NCBI RefSeq assembly: GCF_005155025.1
Contig: NZ_CP039731.1
Location: 1,116,001 to 1,180,000, forward strand
Reading direction: 5' to 3'
DNA length: 64,000 nt
Source: Aquitalea aquatilis
GTDB lineage: Bacteria; Pseudomonadota; Gammaproteobacteria; Burkholderiales; Chromobacteriaceae
The first letter of the stretch is position 1, and every line of letters begins with the position of its first letter. The notes beneath the pieces were generated by a model that saw nothing but the letters and a program-made list of their open reading frames with translations, had not been told where the DNA came from and made no database searches. Positions 18,551 to 52,783 of this stretch are shown here, in pieces. Position numbers and translations under genes: made by a program.

Positions 18551-18571
18551 CGCCGTTTCCTCCGGTGTGCG

Positions 18572-18585
18572 GTTTCACGTGAAAC
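18572..18585. promoter_or_regulatory. parS site (ParB binding)
   Basis: GTTTCACGTGAAAC is a perfect match to the core of the near-universal chromosomal parS, TGTTTCACGTGAAACA. It lies in the gap upstream of the MazG-like gene. Loading of ParB at such sites near oriC drives chromosome segregation. Confidence 0.85.
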
Positions 18586-18607
18586 CGCAGGACACATGCA
18601 AAACAAA

Positions 18608-27070: not shown

Positions 27071-27203
27071 TGTGGATAAGCCCTCATGCTGCCCGGCTTA
27101 TGGCCCCATGGGCAGAGCCAATGCCAGTCAACACAATGGAACCACTATCAGCAAAGTCCCAGGCTTTACCCACAGGAGTATTGCAACAGCAAACTTATCC
27201 ACA
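27071..27203. promoter_or_regulatory. Small cluster of DnaA boxes
   Basis: Perfect boxes TGTGGATAA (27071-27079) and TTATCCACA (27195-27203) flank a one-mismatch box TTACCCACA (27166-27174). CTCCTGTGGATAAGCC and GGCTTTACCCACAGGAG also form an imperfect inverted repeat over them. They sit in the gap upstream of the GNAT gene. Confidence 0.5.
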
Positions 27204-27228: not shown

Positions 27229-28764
27229 TCAGTGGCATGCCGGGACAGAAATCTTCTCACCGTCCACATCGATAAATGGACCACGACGATCAGCAATCAA
27301 GAAATAGATCATGCCGCCAAGCCCGGCCGCCATGAACCAGGAAAAGTCTCTGAACACAGCAAACAAGGGCAAGAAGGTGAGCCCAAGAGCCAGCCCGCCA
27401 GAGATCATCAGCGCAATGATCGCCCTGGGATTACTGCCTGCCATATAGTGGTATTCGCTCTGTGCATCATCTGAATACAAGGCAGGTATATTGATTTTCT
27501 GCTTTCTGATTATCCAGTAATCAATCATGATGATGCCGAATAGTGGCCCCAGCAATGCTCCTAATCCCCCCAGAAAAATCGGAATGACCAGGGGTGAGTT
27601 ATAAAGATTCCATGGCAGGATAAGCAGCCCAATCAAAGCAGATAAAATGGCAGCTTTGCGAAAATTCATGTACTTCGGCATCAGGTTTGTCAATGCATAG
27701 GTTGGTGCCACAAAATTGGCCATCAAATTCACACCGACTGTCAGTATCAGTAGCGAAAGCGTGGCAAGCACCAACAAAAAGGTATTCGGAATCATCGCGA
27801 CAATATCTGCCGGCGACGCAATGATATGGCCATCAATATGGTATTGCCCACCAGTAAGCACCACGACAATTCCACCAAAAAGCAACATATTGATTGGAAT
27901 ACCCCAGAAATTTCCCCAGAAAATGGAATTCCTGGATTGCGCAGCTCGAGTGAAGTCGCAGAAATTAAGAATGAAAGTACCGTAAACACTTACCCACAGG
28001 GCCGCAGCACCAAGAATTTTTATCCACATGTCAGTGCCACTCAGTGCATGACTCATTTCCCAGGCAATGGAAAACTTGGCACGCACCAGAATCCAGCCTG
28101 CGAGCGCGCTAAAAGTCATCAAGATCACAGGCCCGGCAATGGCTTCATACTTGCGAATCATTTCCATGCCATAGCTGACAATTACCAGCTGTATGGCCCA
28201 CAGTAGCAGGAAAGTAGCCCAACCCAATGAAGACAGCCCAAGCAGGTTATCTGTCTGAAAAGACTTAAGTGCCGGGTAAATGGCAATCAGTGCCAATTGT
28301 AAGACAAGAGATGCCAGGTAAGTCTGAATACCAAACCATGCAATGGCAACGGCCCCACGCAATAAGGCAGGAATCTGCGCACCACGCGTGCCAAAAGCAA
28401 TACGGCTCATCACAGGAAAGGGAATACCTGTCTTTTCACCCATATACCCGGACAGGTTAAGCAGCAAGAACAGGAATACTGCTCCAAATCCAAAGGCCAA
28501 TAATATCTGCCAGCCACCCAGACCCAATGAAAACAGGCCAATTGCGAATGCATAATTCCCCAGGTTATGCACATCATTGGCCCATAGTGCAAAAATACTG
28601 TAAGCACTCCATTGCCTGCCATTTTTATTTGTTGGTGCTAAATCAGCATTATAAAGCCGTGAACTCAGCCCAGATTGGCCATCTAAATAATTGGTAACTG
28701 GCTGATCAGCAGGTGTTGCTGCCGGCAAATTGCCAGAATCTTCAATATAATCGGTTTGCCGCAT
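27229..28764 (-). CDS. NCS1 family nucleobase/hydantoin-type cation symporter
   Basis: The 511-residue permease has about twelve helices. NCS1 hallmarks are SAYSIFALWANDVHNLGNYA, GEKTGIPFPVMSRIAFGTRG, AWFGIQTYLAS, NFCDFTRAAQSRN and ADIVAMIPNTFLLVLA. Family members carry uracil, cytosine, allantoin, hydantoins or thiamine precursors. Its place beside thiC could hint at a pyrimidine precursor, but no TPP element precedes it. Base composition is clearly lower in GC (about 47%) than its neighbours, pointing to recent transfer. GGAGAAAATAGC sets the ATG at 28764. Confidence 0.88.
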   Translation of the reverse strand: MRQTDYIEDSGNLPAATPADQPVTNYLDGQSGLSSRLYNADLAPTNKNGRQWSAYSIFALWANDVHNLGNYAFAIGLFSLGLGGWQILLAFGFGAVFLFLLLNLSGYMGEKTGIPFPVMSRIAFGTRGAQIPALLRGAVAIAWFGIQTYLASLVLQLALIAIYPALKSFQTDNLLGLSSLGWATFLLLWAIQLVIVSYGMEMIRKYEAIAGPVILMTFSALAGWILVRAKFSIAWEMSHALSGTDMWIKILGAAALWVSVYGTFILNFCDFTRAAQSRNSIFWGNFWGIPINMLLFGGIVVVLTGGQYHIDGHIIASPADIVAMIPNTFLLVLATLSLLILTVGVNLMANFVAPTYALTNLMPKYMNFRKAAILSALIGLLILPWNLYNSPLVIPIFLGGLGALLGPLFGIIMIDYWIIRKQKINIPALYSDDAQSEYHYMAGSNPRAIIALMISGGLALGLTFLPLFAVFRDFSWFMAAGLGGMIYFLIADRRGPFIDVDGEKISVPACH

Positions 28765-31350: not shown

Positions 31351-32010
31351 ATGGATTTTGAAAATGCCCGTTTCAACATGGTCGAGCAGCAGATTCGTCC
31401 GTGGGACGTACTTGACCCGAAAATTCTGGACCTGCTGTTTCACGTGAAACGCGAAGACTTCGTTGCTGACGACAAGCGCCAGCTGGCCTTTGTCGACACC
31501 GAACTGCCGCTGCCGCACGGTGGCAAGATGCTGCAGCCCAAGCTGGAAGCCCGTCTGGCGCAGGACGTCGCTGTCGAGGCACAAGACAAGGTACTGGAAA
31601 TCGGTACTGGTGCTGGCTATCTGACCGCCTTGCTGGCCAAGCTGGGCCGCCATGTATATAGCGTTGAGATTAATGCCGCCACGCGCGAAACCGCAGCTGC
31701 CAACCTGAAAAAAGCCGGTATCGGCAATGTCACCCTGGTGGAAGGCAATGGTCTGGACGGCCTGCAGCAGCAAGCTCCGTTCGATGTCATCGTGGTGGGT
31801 GGTTCGCTGCCGGTGGTGCCGGAAAGCCTGAAATCCCAGCTGGCCGTAGGTGGCCGCATGATCGTGGTGGTGGGTGACCTGCCGGTGATGAGCTGCAAGC
31901 TGATCAAGCGCGTGGGCGAATCATCCTTCAGCGAAACCAATCTGTTTGAAACCTGTATTTCCCGTCTGGCCAAGGCAGAAGCCATCGAGCCGGAACGCTT
32001 CGTTTTCTGA
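31351..32010 (+). CDS. pcm: Protein-L-isoaspartate O-methyltransferase family protein
   Basis: The 219-residue protein starts MDFENARFNMVEQQIRPWDV and has LPLPHGGKMLQPKLEARLAQ, the SAM loop VLEIGTGAGYLTALLAKLG, VYSVEINAATRETAA and FDVIVVGGSLPVVPESLKSQ. Pcm-type enzymes methylate damaged isoaspartyl residues, although this short betaproteobacterial type may act otherwise. CGGAGTAAGCTG precedes the ATG. The codons for FHVKR hold a perfect parS site. It shares the stop/start TGATG with the rhodanese gene. Confidence 0.88.
   Translation: MDFENARFNMVEQQIRPWDVLDPKILDLLFHVKREDFVADDKRQLAFVDTELPLPHGGKMLQPKLEARLAQDVAVEAQDKVLEIGTGAGYLTALLAKLGRHVYSVEINAATRETAAANLKKAGIGNVTLVEGNGLDGLQQQAPFDVIVVGGSLPVVPESLKSQLAVGGRMIVVVGDLPVMSCKLIKRVGESSFSETNLFETCISRLAKAEAIEPERFVF
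31437..31450. promoter_or_regulatory. parS site (ParB binding) inside pcm
   Basis: GTTTCACGTGAAAC, with TG before it as in the full TGTTTCACGTGAAACA consensus (15 of 16), lies within the pcm coding sequence, as chromosomal parS sites often do. Confidence 0.88.
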
Positions 32011-37713: not shown

Positions 37714-38691
37714 TTAGCACTGGTGATAGCCGCGATACCAGTCAACAAAGGCCTGCATGCCGGTCTGCAATGGTGTGTCCGGGGAAAAGCCCACGGCAGC
37801 GCGCAGCCGGCTGGTATCGGCATAGGTCACCGGCACATCGCCATCCTGCATCGGGTAGTACTCCTTCACCGCTTCACGACCGCAGGCAGCTTCGATGCTG
37901 TGGATGAAATCCATAAGCGCCACCGGATTGTGATTGCCGATATTGAACAGGGCATAGGGCGGCTGGCCCTTGCCTGCCCTTGGCACATGCTGCATCACCC
38001 GCACCACGCCTTCGACAATATCGTCGATGTAGGTGAAATCGCGTTGCATCTGGCCGTGGTTGAACACCTTGATCGGCCGGCCTTGCAAGATGGCCTCGGT
38101 AAACAGCCACGGAGCCATGTCCGGTCGGCCCCACGGGCCATACACGGTGAAAAAGCGCAGGCCGGTACAAGGCAGGTCATACAGGTGGGCATAGCTGTGC
38201 GCCATCACCTCGTTGGCTTTCTTGGTGGCGGCATAAAAGCTCACCGGCGCATCCACCCGGTCGTCCTCGGCAAACGGCACCTTGGCATTCTGGCCGTACA
38301 CGCTGCTGGAGCTGGCATACACCAGGTGCTTCACCGCGTGACGACGGCAGGCTTCCAGCACATTGGTCATGCCCAAGAGATTGCTCTGGGCGTAGACATG
38401 CGGATTGTCGATGGAATAGCGCACGCCGGCCTGCGCTGCCAGATGAATCACGTAATCGAAGCTTTCCGCCACACACAGCGCGTTCAGCGCCGTCCAGTCA
38501 GCCAGGTCCAGTTGCACGAAGCGAAAGCCGTCACGGCCCTCCAGCGTGGCAAGGCGGGCCTGTTTCAGGCTCACCGGGTAGTAATCATTCAGATTATCCA
38601 CCCCCACGACCTCGATTCCCGCTTGTTGCAACAGGCGTTCGGCCACGGCTCTTCCAATGAAACCGGCCACACCGGTCAGCAGAATCTTCAT
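37714..38691 (-). CDS. NAD-dependent epimerase, UDP-glucuronate 4-epimerase-like
   Basis: This 325-residue short-chain dehydrogenase has the NAD loop LLTGVAGFIGRAVAERL, VVGVDNLNDYYPVSLKQARL, HLAAQAGVRYSIDNPHVYAQ, the YxxxK catalytic site in FYAATKKANEVMAHSYAHLY and RFFTVYGPWGRPDMAPWLF, as in UDP-glucuronate 4-epimerases. The product would be UDP-galacturonate for surface sugars. Start and the preceding glycosyltransferase stop overlap as ATGA, so the two are coupled. Confidence 0.88.
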   Translation of the reverse strand: MKILLTGVAGFIGRAVAERLLQQAGIEVVGVDNLNDYYPVSLKQARLATLEGRDGFRFVQLDLADWTALNALCVAESFDYVIHLAAQAGVRYSIDNPHVYAQSNLLGMTNVLEACRRHAVKHLVYASSSSVYGQNAKVPFAEDDRVDAPVSFYAATKKANEVMAHSYAHLYDLPCTGLRFFTVYGPWGRPDMAPWLFTEAILQGRPIKVFNHGQMQRDFTYIDDIVEGVVRVMQHVPRAGKGQPPYALFNIGNHNPVALMDFIHSIEAACGREAVKEYYPMQDGDVPVTYADTSRLRAAVGFSPDTPLQTGMQAFVDWYRGYHQC

Positions 38692-39455
38692 TTCCTGTTT
38701 CCCTGCCTTCCCAAACGATACAGCTCGTTGAGCTTGGCGTATTTGATATAGCTGTTGAAGCAGCCAATGCTGATGTGGACAAGACCGGGCAAACCGTCCT
38801 GAAAACCACGTCGCACCAGGTAAAACTTGGCAAAGCGCAGCAGCGGACTGAACACCAGCTTGGCCCATCCCGCCTTTTTCCCGCGTTTATACAGCAATTC
38901 GGCTTGCAGGCTGGTGTAGCGGTTCTGCTTGCTCAGATACAGCGCAATGTCCTCACCCGACTCGTGCATCAGGTCGCCGGAGAGTTTTTCCACAGGGCTG
39001 TCGGTCTGCACGTACTCGTGTACCAGGTCGTCCGACCAGCGTGCCTGGCGCCGATCAAACAAGCGCAGGCTCCAGTCCGGATAGCCTTCGCCATGCTTGA
39101 GAAAACGACCCATGAAACGGTTGCTGCGGGCAAAACGGTAAGCAGCTGCCTGTGGATTGTTCAGTATCTGTTTGATTTGCAATACCAATTCTGGCGATGG
39201 CCATTCGTCTGCATCCAGACACAACACCCAGTCATGACTGGCGGCAGCGACAGCAAATTGCTTCTGCGGACCGAATCCCAGCCAGTCCTGGTGGATAACT
39301 TTTGCCTTATAGGCAGAAGCTATCGCCACGGTTTCATCCGTACTTCCCGAATCCACCACCACGATTTCATCAGCCCACTGAATGCTCGCCAGTGTTTTTT
39401 CCAGCTGCAGAGCGGCATTTTTGGTGATGAGCACAACGCTGAGCGGTTCTCGCAT
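38688..39455 (-). CDS. Family 2 glycosyltransferase, WaaE/LgtF type
   Basis: The 255-residue GT2 enzyme has PLSVVLITKNAALQLEKTLA, DEIVVVDSGSTDETVAIA, the metal motif LCLDADEWPSPELV and HGEGYPDWSLRLFDRRQARW, followed by a hydrophobic C-terminal helix region. This matches WaaE/KdtX-type enzymes that add glucose to heptose I of the lipooligosaccharide core. It fits the divergent waaC-waaA genes. It heads the operon with the epimerase gene. Confidence 0.85.
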   Translation of the reverse strand: MREPLSVVLITKNAALQLEKTLASIQWADEIVVVDSGSTDETVAIASAYKAKVIHQDWLGFGPQKQFAVAAASHDWVLCLDADEWPSPELVLQIKQILNNPQAAAYRFARSNRFMGRFLKHGEGYPDWSLRLFDRRQARWSDDLVHEYVQTDSPVEKLSGDLMHESGEDIALYLSKQNRYTSLQAELLYKRGKKAGWAKLVFSPLLRFAKFYLVRRGFQDGLPGLVHISIGCFNSYIKYAKLNELYRLGRQGNRK

Positions 39456-39499
39456 CTTTTCTTGTTATTCCCATATGTATATGGAAGAAACTAGTAGAA

Positions 39500-39954
39500 G
39501 AGGCCCACTTGTTGTGGATAAGTCCTTATTTACCAGTTTATTCAATGATTTATTGCAGATTGAAAGTTGTTGGTCAGCGCATGACTGAAGACATGATCCT
39601 TTGTGGATAACTTTGGCAGTGTGCTGCAGACCGGGTTTATCCACATGCTGTCAGTGACTTGACCAAGCCGGTCTGTGAATACGCATTTCTGTCGTGTCCT
39701 GATTAGTTATCTTAAGCCCAATTTTATTATGAAGAGACTAATGAGAGCAGCGCTTTTCTGTTGATAACCCTGAAAAACCGTTATCTGTTCAGTAGCTTGC
39801 CCTGTTGATGGCACTGGGATTAATCGGGTGGTGGGAGGGCTGGCAGATTGTGGATAAATATGGCCGAAATTATTCACAGCTGCTTATCCACAAATGCTGC
39901 CTGTGGATTTTACGTGGTTAACCACAGCGACGCTCGGTTACAATGCGCGCCATG
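39500..39954. other. DnaA-box-rich AT-rich gap: candidate replication origin
   Basis: No gene is seen. Six boxes match TTATNCACA: 39513-39521, 39602-39610, 39637-39645, 39849-39857, 39870-39878 and 39884-39892. One-mismatch boxes are TGTGAATAC (39674-39682) and TGTTGATAA (39759-39767); a further perfect box lies at 39995-40003 in waaC. AT-rich tracts that could unwind lie at 39519-39563 and 39705-39749 (each a little over 70% AT). It separates divergent gene groups. An origin is inferred; dnaA is not here, so a DnaA-titration locus remains possible. Confidence 0.55.
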
Positions 39955-40914
39955 ATGAACGTACTGATCGTGCGTACCTCGTCGATGGGCGACCTTATCC
40001 ACACCTGGCCTGCCATTACCGAGCTGAAAACGCACTACCCCAACCTTCGTATCAGCTGGCTGGCCGAGGAAAACTTCGCTGACATCGCCCGTTTGCACCC
40101 GGCGGTGGATGAAGTCATTACCCTGGCCTGGCGGCGCTGGCGCAAAAACCTGCTGTCCGCGGCCACCTGGGCAGAAATCAAGGCCATGCGGGGCAAGCTG
40201 CGTGCCACCCGCTGGGAGCTGGTGGTGGATTGCCAGGGACTGCTGAAAAGTGCGCTGCCGGCCAAGCTAAGCTGCGCCCCGCTGACCGGTTACGACCGCC
40301 AGAGCATTCGCGAACCGCTGGCCTGCCTGCTGTATGACAAGGCCCATCGTGTCGACTGGTCGCTGTCAGCGGTCGAGCGCTGTCGCTTGCTGTTGTCCAA
40401 GGTATTTGGCTACCAGACGCAAGGCAGCCCGCAATTTGGCGTTCCAGCGGCGCTGCGGCCGGACTGGCTGCCGGCAGGTCAATACGCCGTGCTGCTGCAT
40501 GCCACCAGCCGCGCTTCCAAGGAATGGCCGGAGCCAGACTGGATTGCGCTGGGTAAGCAGCTGGTGTCCCAGCACGGCCTGCAGCTGATCATTCCCTGGG
40601 GCAATGCCGCAGAACAGCAGCGGGCAGAACGGCTGGCGGCTGCCATGCCGCAAGCGGTGGTGGCACCGCGCATGAATCTGGTGGAAGCCTGTGGCGTGCT
40701 GGGCCATGCCCGTGCTGTCATCGGCGTGGATACCGGGCTGTGCCATCTGGCCAATGCGCTGAATGTGCCGCTGGTGGCCATTTATACCGATACCGACCCG
40801 AGCAAGACCGGCGTGGTGGAAACCCCCTGGGCCACCAATCTGGGCGGCATCGGCCAATGCCCGACGGTGGATGAGGTGATGCAGGCCCTGCTGGCGCGCA
40901 AGGACATGGCATGA
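39955..40914 (+). CDS. waaC: Lipooligosaccharide heptosyltransferase I
   Basis: The 319-residue GT9 enzyme adds the first heptose to Kdo of the inner core. It opens MNVLIVRTSSMGDLIHTWPA, has WWELVVDCQGLLKSAL-like ELVVDCQGLLKSALPAKL, YAVLLHATSRASKEWPEPDW and AVIGVDTGLCHLANALNVPL with TDTDPSKTG, as in WaaC. An ATG at 39952 is an alternative start. It overlaps waaA as ATGA. A DnaA box lies within codons 14-17. Confidence 0.93.
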   Translation: MNVLIVRTSSMGDLIHTWPAITELKTHYPNLRISWLAEENFADIARLHPAVDEVITLAWRRWRKNLLSAATWAEIKAMRGKLRATRWELVVDCQGLLKSALPAKLSCAPLTGYDRQSIREPLACLLYDKAHRVDWSLSAVERCRLLLSKVFGYQTQGSPQFGVPAALRPDWLPAGQYAVLLHATSRASKEWPEPDWIALGKQLVSQHGLQLIIPWGNAAEQQRAERLAAAMPQAVVAPRMNLVEACGVLGHARAVIGVDTGLCHLANALNVPLVAIYTDTDPSKTGVVETPWATNLGGIGQCPTVDEVMQALLARKDMA

Positions 40915-52722: not shown

Positions 52723-52726
52723 TGCC

Positions 52727-52740
52727 GTTTCACGTGAAAC
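52727..52740. promoter_or_regulatory. parS site (ParB binding)
   Basis: GTTTCACGTGAAAC followed by A matches 15 of 16 bases of TGTTTCACGTGAAACA. It lies in the 61-base gap between the M48 and hemJ genes. Confidence 0.87.
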
Positions 52741-52783
52741 AGGCCGCGCAGCCTGCATGCAACGAAGTCTGAACGGAGTCTGA

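Follow-up and report, generated by a model that had tools for sequence, protein, structure and literature searches.

A probable chromosomal replication origin beside waaC, 131 kb from dnaA, in Aquitalea

The origin-like gap and its neighbourhood

The window analysed here, a stretch of 64 kb (bases 1116001–1180000) from a closed chromosome of 4,359,891 bp (referred to as G000), very probably carries the chromosomal replication origin (oriC) at window positions 39457–40003, beside waaC. A preliminary description of this DNA had already read the site as a candidate origin away from dnaA, and that reading is supported by the density of DnaA boxes, the position of the GC-skew minimum in the home genus, the conservation of the boxes among relatives and the geometry of parS-like and dif-like sites. 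The left edge of the interval should move to about 39457; the AT-rich tract at 39457–39500 fell just outside the interval given before.

The gap between the flanking open reading frames spans 39456–39942 (1155456–1155942 of the chromosome). It is free of genes, as had been described, and is 487 bp long in the list of reading frames. Its GC content is 43.1%, compared with 61.1% for the whole window. The two neighbours diverge, with a glycosyltransferase-like gene on the minus strand and waaC followed by waaA (NF004386, above the cut-off) on the plus strand. The nearest named relatives of this waaC are those of Aquitalea species, with 96% identity to A. aquatica. The dnaA gene lies at 1286942–1288309 of the same chromosome (TIGR00362, 1.8e-176) and is followed by dnaN and gyrB in an intact cluster that is 131 kb from the gap, so the gap adjoins neither dnaA nor dnaN.

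DnaA boxes, AT-rich tracts and DnaA-trios

The features of the site are collected in Table 1. Six exact TTATNCACA boxes are located in the gap and a seventh inside waaC, in agreement with the preliminary count, whereas the boxes with one mismatch number three (39674, 39759 and 39918) and not two. The claim that the boxes exceed chance holds as well: the window contains 12 exact boxes, against a mean of 0.70 and a maximum of 3 in 100 shuffled sequences. On the whole chromosome there are 60, compared with 27 for a reversed control pattern; seven of the 60 fall within 491 bp (39513–40003), and no other place on the chromosome is equally dense. Among the 500-bp windows of the 380 kb scanned in this region, the gap ranks first, with 7 exact boxes and 10 with at most one mismatch; the runner-up has only 2 and 4, respectively. 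The cluster at waaC is likewise the top 500-bp window of the near-origin stretches in all six genomes scanned.

Table 1. Features of the putative origin and its surroundings (window positions unless a genome is named)
Feature	Position	Strand	Remarks
Glycosyltransferase-like gene, flanking	38688..39455	-	best NCBIfam match TIGR04283; all matches below cut-off
AT-rich tract with DnaA-trio-like motif	39457..39500	.	29.5% GC; predicted unwinding site
DnaA-trio-like motif AAC TAG TAG AAG	39489-39500	+	conserved
DnaA box B1 TTATCCACA	39513..39521	-	exact; 12-base spacer to trio tract
IHF-like site, weak	39540..39552	+	one mismatch; 33 such matches in the 64-kb window
DnaA box B2 TTATCCACA	39602..39610	-	exact match
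DnaA box B3 TTATCCACA	39637..39645	+	exact match
Second AT-rich tract	39700..39745	.	28.3% GC; alternative unwinding site (predicted)
One-mismatch box B4 TTATCAACA	39759..39767	-	exact TTATCCACA at the equivalent place in several Chromobacterium
DnaA box B5 TTATCCACA	39849..39857	-	exact match
DnaA box B6 TTATTCACA	39870..39878	+	exact match
DnaA box B7 TTATCCACA	39884..39892	+	exact match
One-mismatch box TTAACCACA	39918..39926	+	perhaps overlaps the waaC -35 region, as judged by eye
waaC, lipopolysaccharide heptosyltransferase I	39943..40914	+	TIGR02193, 1.7e-114
DnaA box TTATCCACA	39995..40003	+	inside the waaC reading frame
parS-like site, left of the putative origin	31436..31451	.	one mismatch; G000:C1:1147436
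parS-like site, right of the putative origin	52726..52741	.	one mismatch; G000:C1:1168726
Same-strand box pairs, window	27166-27203; 27990-28028		
Same-strand box pairs, G028:C1	138185, 180929, 206649, 208977, 246327, 265924		
Same-strand box pairs, other genomes	G002:C1 4353899; G004:C1 4238010		

Three AT-rich tracts of 28–30% GC are present (39457–39500, 39516–39560 and 39700–39745), one more than had been reported. Judged by nearest-neighbour energies, each of the three lies within the least stable 0.08–0.11% of the 40-mers of the window: 39703–39742 is the least stable 40-mer of the gap (rank 0.08%), and 39457–39496 belongs to the least stable 0.11%. DNA that is predicted from its sequence to melt easily is found beside a DnaA box.

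In an alignment of 20 sequences, the trio-like motif beside B1 is conserved as strongly as the boxes themselves, the mean frequency of the major base being 0.96 for 39484–39500 and 0.67 for the other non-box columns of the gap. By a strict trio rule, the run at B1 is 2.45 compared with 0.91 in shuffled sequences, and B1 is the sole box among seven to be enriched (B7, 0.95 versus 0.70). By the looser NAN rule, a run of at least three occurs at B1 in 11 of the 20 sequences (shuffles, 0.34), the trios being shortened in many relatives, and likewise at B7 in 11 of 20 (shuffles, 0.24); hence B1 is set apart by the strict rule only. A second trio module beside the box at 39759 had been picked out by eye. 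Its NAN mean of 1.85 does not exceed that of shuffles (2.46), and 39700–39745 is therefore kept only as an AT-rich tract. Part of the IHF-like pattern is retained in the alignment, but this site, one of 33 such matches in the window, is too weak to carry weight, and not every oriC has an IHF site. A TACAAT just before the waaC start is conserved.

GC skew and the parS-like and dif-like sites

GC skew was computed on stretches of chromosome. In the 380 kb from 1.00 to 1.38 Mb of G000, the cumulative skew reaches its minimum at 1155390 (window position 39390), only 66 bp from the gap. Blocks of 10 kb sampled elsewhere on the same chromosome show negative skew between base 1 and 0.82 Mb and again between 3.4 and 4.2 Mb; between 1.4 and 3.2 Mb the skew is positive, save for one block near zero. 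Because any divergent gene pair gives a skew minimum locally, the agreement at the level of single bases is partly expected, and the change of sign over tens of kilobases is the stronger evidence. Two other closed genomes of the genus likewise have their minimum within 160 bp of the gap (G002, minimum at 4341098 and gap beginning at 4341257; G004, minimum at 4248452 and first box at 4248582). G004 also shows a local reversal of about 40 kb (4340–4380 kb) just before dnaA, which is far shallower than the main minimum. Within the home genus, therefore, the stretches scanned place the minimum at the gap and not at dnaA, as the preliminary reading had required.

Across the family the agreement is partial. 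In G028, which belongs to another genus (g2), the minimum at 238322 is about 1.5 kb from the boxes at 236334–236834. The minimum of G059 is separated by 13 kb from the box cluster and by 61 kb from dnaA. For G033, a distant member of the family, it falls at 1236828, at a distance of 13 kb from dnaA and of 88 kb from the box cluster; the curve there is flat and weak, and this ambiguous result counts against an origin at the cluster in G033. Altogether, the large-scale skew minimum lies within 2 kb of the cluster in four of the six genomes, G000 included.

Sites resembling parS and dif, both searched for with consensus sequences, occupy positions that agree with a putative origin at the gap. Fourteen parS-like sites (2 exact and 12 with one mismatch) were found in G000, G002 and G004, which are close relatives and not independent; all are within 110 kb of the gap, they lie on both sides of it, and the reversed control pattern gave none. 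The dif-like site of each of these genomes (one mismatch) is 31, 22 and 40 kb, respectively, from the point opposite the gap, and 164, 85 and 100 kb when measured for dnaA. A second, poorer match to dif in G000, at 3992845, has two mismatches, and a further parS-like palindrome, also with two mismatches, is present at 18571–18586 of the window.

Conservation among relatives

The preliminary description had made its reading depend on the boxes being kept in related genomes. Six or seven exact boxes are kept in all ten genomes of the genus, the window's own included, with nearly constant spacing, and their number varies across the family. Among 26 loci from named organisms, 20 have three to seven exact boxes from about −450 to +60 of waaC; these come from Aquitalea, Chromobacterium and Paludibacterium, with one labelled Xenophilus, and several of the Aquitalea loci duplicate genus genomes already counted and are not additional evidence. 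The other six, from other groups, have no exact box in this interval. A DNA match to the gap was obtained in 60 of 61 family genomes, representing 10 of 10 genera, with a query that ended in 108 bp of waaC, and some of the matches lie mainly in that part. The best matches of G033 and G034 are weak and of this kind, each with a second, weaker match in the gap. The sole miss, G046, is a draft that is 84% complete. When the query contained only 18 bp of waaC coding DNA, 13 of 13 family members were matched in a sample of 399 genomes from the order; two matches outside the family, of 25 and 29 bases, were taken as chance.

Conservation within the gap is concentrated on the boxes. In the alignment of 20 sequences, which joins the window with 19 named loci (all 26 except L133, from a second C. 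haemolyticum, and L142–L146 and L150, which have no cluster), 73% of the 63 box columns are invariant, compared with 13% of the 375 other columns of the gap. A second alignment consisted of 10 of the 25 loci L239–L263 together with three named loci.

A second family, f51, has boxes at the same place: five of its six loci carry at least five exact boxes before waaC, and in the remaining one (G289) two are found within 500 bp. In one member (G152, locus L252), nine exact boxes lie within 400 bp upstream of waaC, several of them 11–12 bp apart, an origin-like array that is denser than that of Aquitalea. No box cluster was found upstream of waaC at the 31 loci examined from other families, which represent a small fraction of the 356 genomes matched by waaC: 29 of these loci lack exact boxes, and the other two have just one each, some 0.5 kb upstream.

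The distance from the gap to dnaA is 74–296 kb in the 13 family genomes in which both lie on one contig without a wrap across base 1; G022 and G041 were left out because of such a wrap, and in G044 dnaA was found in two pieces, below the cut-off. At least three closed relatives are numbered from dnaA (G028:C1:266, G038:C1:22 and G041:C1:22), which means that their base 1 is not the putative waaC-side origin; the origin-like gap is some 235 kb away from dnaA in G028 and some 145 kb away in G038.

Alternative explanations

Does replication start at dnaA, as in many bacteria, with the gap being a secondary DnaA site? The intact dnaA‒dnaN‒gyrB cluster would fit such an arrangement, as would the skew minimum of G033, which is nearer to dnaA. 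However, each of the six genomes has only a single box (at most one mismatch) within 600 bp of the dnaA start. The skew of G000 is positive from the gap to beyond dnaA, local reversals aside, and in G028, where dnaA is at base 266, the cumulative skew nevertheless keeps falling as far as 238 kb. We consider an origin at dnaA very improbable on these grounds. An equally slim chance is given to a datA-like titration site, that is, a box cluster with an IHF site that lowers DnaA activity while the origin is elsewhere. This was the main alternative considered before, and it would fit a group of boxes remote from dnaA that includes a weak IHF-like site. Against it stand the skew minimum within 2 kb of the cluster in four of six genomes, the conserved trio-like tract beside the left box, and the fact that no equally dense cluster of exact boxes occurs on G000 or in the stretches scanned of the other five genomes.

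It might also be imagined that the gap does no more than place the promoters of waaC and of the divergent glycosyltransferase-like gene under DnaA control, given that one box is inside waaC and that the waaC promoter may be overlapped by a box variant. A promoter would not need seven strong boxes spread over 0.5 kb together with a trio-like tract and a skew minimum, and this explanation is scarcely credible. An origin beside waaC is by far the preferred reading.

Comparison with known origins

The oriC of E. coli, located at gidA‒mioC away from dnaA, contains an AT-rich unwinding element, a strong box TGTGGATAA, an IHF-type site and further boxes, together with many GATC sites. The waaC-side gap resembles it in being away from dnaA and in the order of AT-rich element, box, a weak candidate IHF site and further boxes. 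Unlike E. coli oriC, it has waaC as a neighbour, contains only 2 GATC sites in 39441–40010, and has boxes also beyond a second AT-rich tract.

The origins of Caulobacter and Wolbachia, on the hemE side, are kept across their lineage beside a metabolic gene and not beside dnaA (PMC1914354). The waaC site shares with them a lineage-wide fixed place beside a metabolic gene; the neighbours are different ones, and those origins have CtrA sites. B1, with its 12-base spacer, trio run and AT-rich tract, is similar to the basal unwinding system of Bacillus subtilis, for which a box‒spacer‒trio rule with a spacer limit of 16 is described (PMC8287927); in contrast to that system, no tandem box pair is seen at B1. 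For Laribacter hongkongensis, Ori-Finder predicted, at the corresponding locus or another, an oriC that likewise has several DnaA boxes, eight in number (PMC3135505). In 342 of 568 chromosomes of a survey, oriC adjoins dnaA near the skew switch, and dnaN, hemE, gidA and hemB are other neighbours (PMC2275245). Origins away from dnaA are thus well known; a waaC address common to two families is the point not met in the literature listed. Among the titles and abstract openings listed for Chromobacterium, Aquitalea, Chromobacteriaceae or waaC, none mentions an oriC at waaC; subscription papers, supplements and DoriC are outside this scope, and oriC databases may list a waaC-side origin for relatives.

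Proposed mechanism and consequences

We propose that DnaA would bind the seven strong boxes and several weaker ones, extend from B1 along the trio-like tract and melt the AT-rich DNA at 39457–39500, with 39700–39745 as an alternative or second melting site. Helicase would then be loaded, and two forks would leave, one via the glycosyltransferase-like gene and the other via waaC. The flanking parS-like sites, if bound by ParB, could let ParAB part the new origins. The conserved TACAAT and the box variant near the likely −35 region suggest, on sequence grounds, that transcription of waaC may be linked to the state of the origin.

How did the two loci come apart? It is possible, though we hold it to be rather doubtful, that in the ancestor of f51 and Chromobacteriaceae oriC parted from the dnaA cluster and stayed at the waaC promoter while dnaA drifted to 74–296 kb away, with spare box pairs 29–30 bp apart buffering DnaA. 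If this were true, control of the origin here would be by origin-proximal titration and not by adjacency to dnaA. If the origin is beside waaC, placing it at dnaA would introduce an error of about 0.07–0.3 Mb into analyses of replication strand, growth rate or gene position in this family. The family would also provide a clean lineage in which to study the separation of an origin from dnaA and its persistence next to a single envelope gene.

Box groups elsewhere

Same-strand box pairs 29–30 bp apart recur near the origin-like gap, with ten in 1.70 Mb of six genomes; G028 accounts for six of them, and G059 and G033 have none. No such pair was found in 680 kb of far stretches, a poor control in that 20 of the 34 stretches are from G000. 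These pairs are possible DnaA titration sites. The next densest place on G000 after the gap is a small cluster of three exact boxes in 198 bp at 1431854–1432051 (L002), and among the matches listed, two boxes with the same spacing as in this cluster occur at G001:C12:189296–189365. A convergent pair of exact boxes is present at G000:C1:3960936–3960971, with the same spacing in G001 and G002 among the matches listed, and it could be a datA- or DARS-like site.
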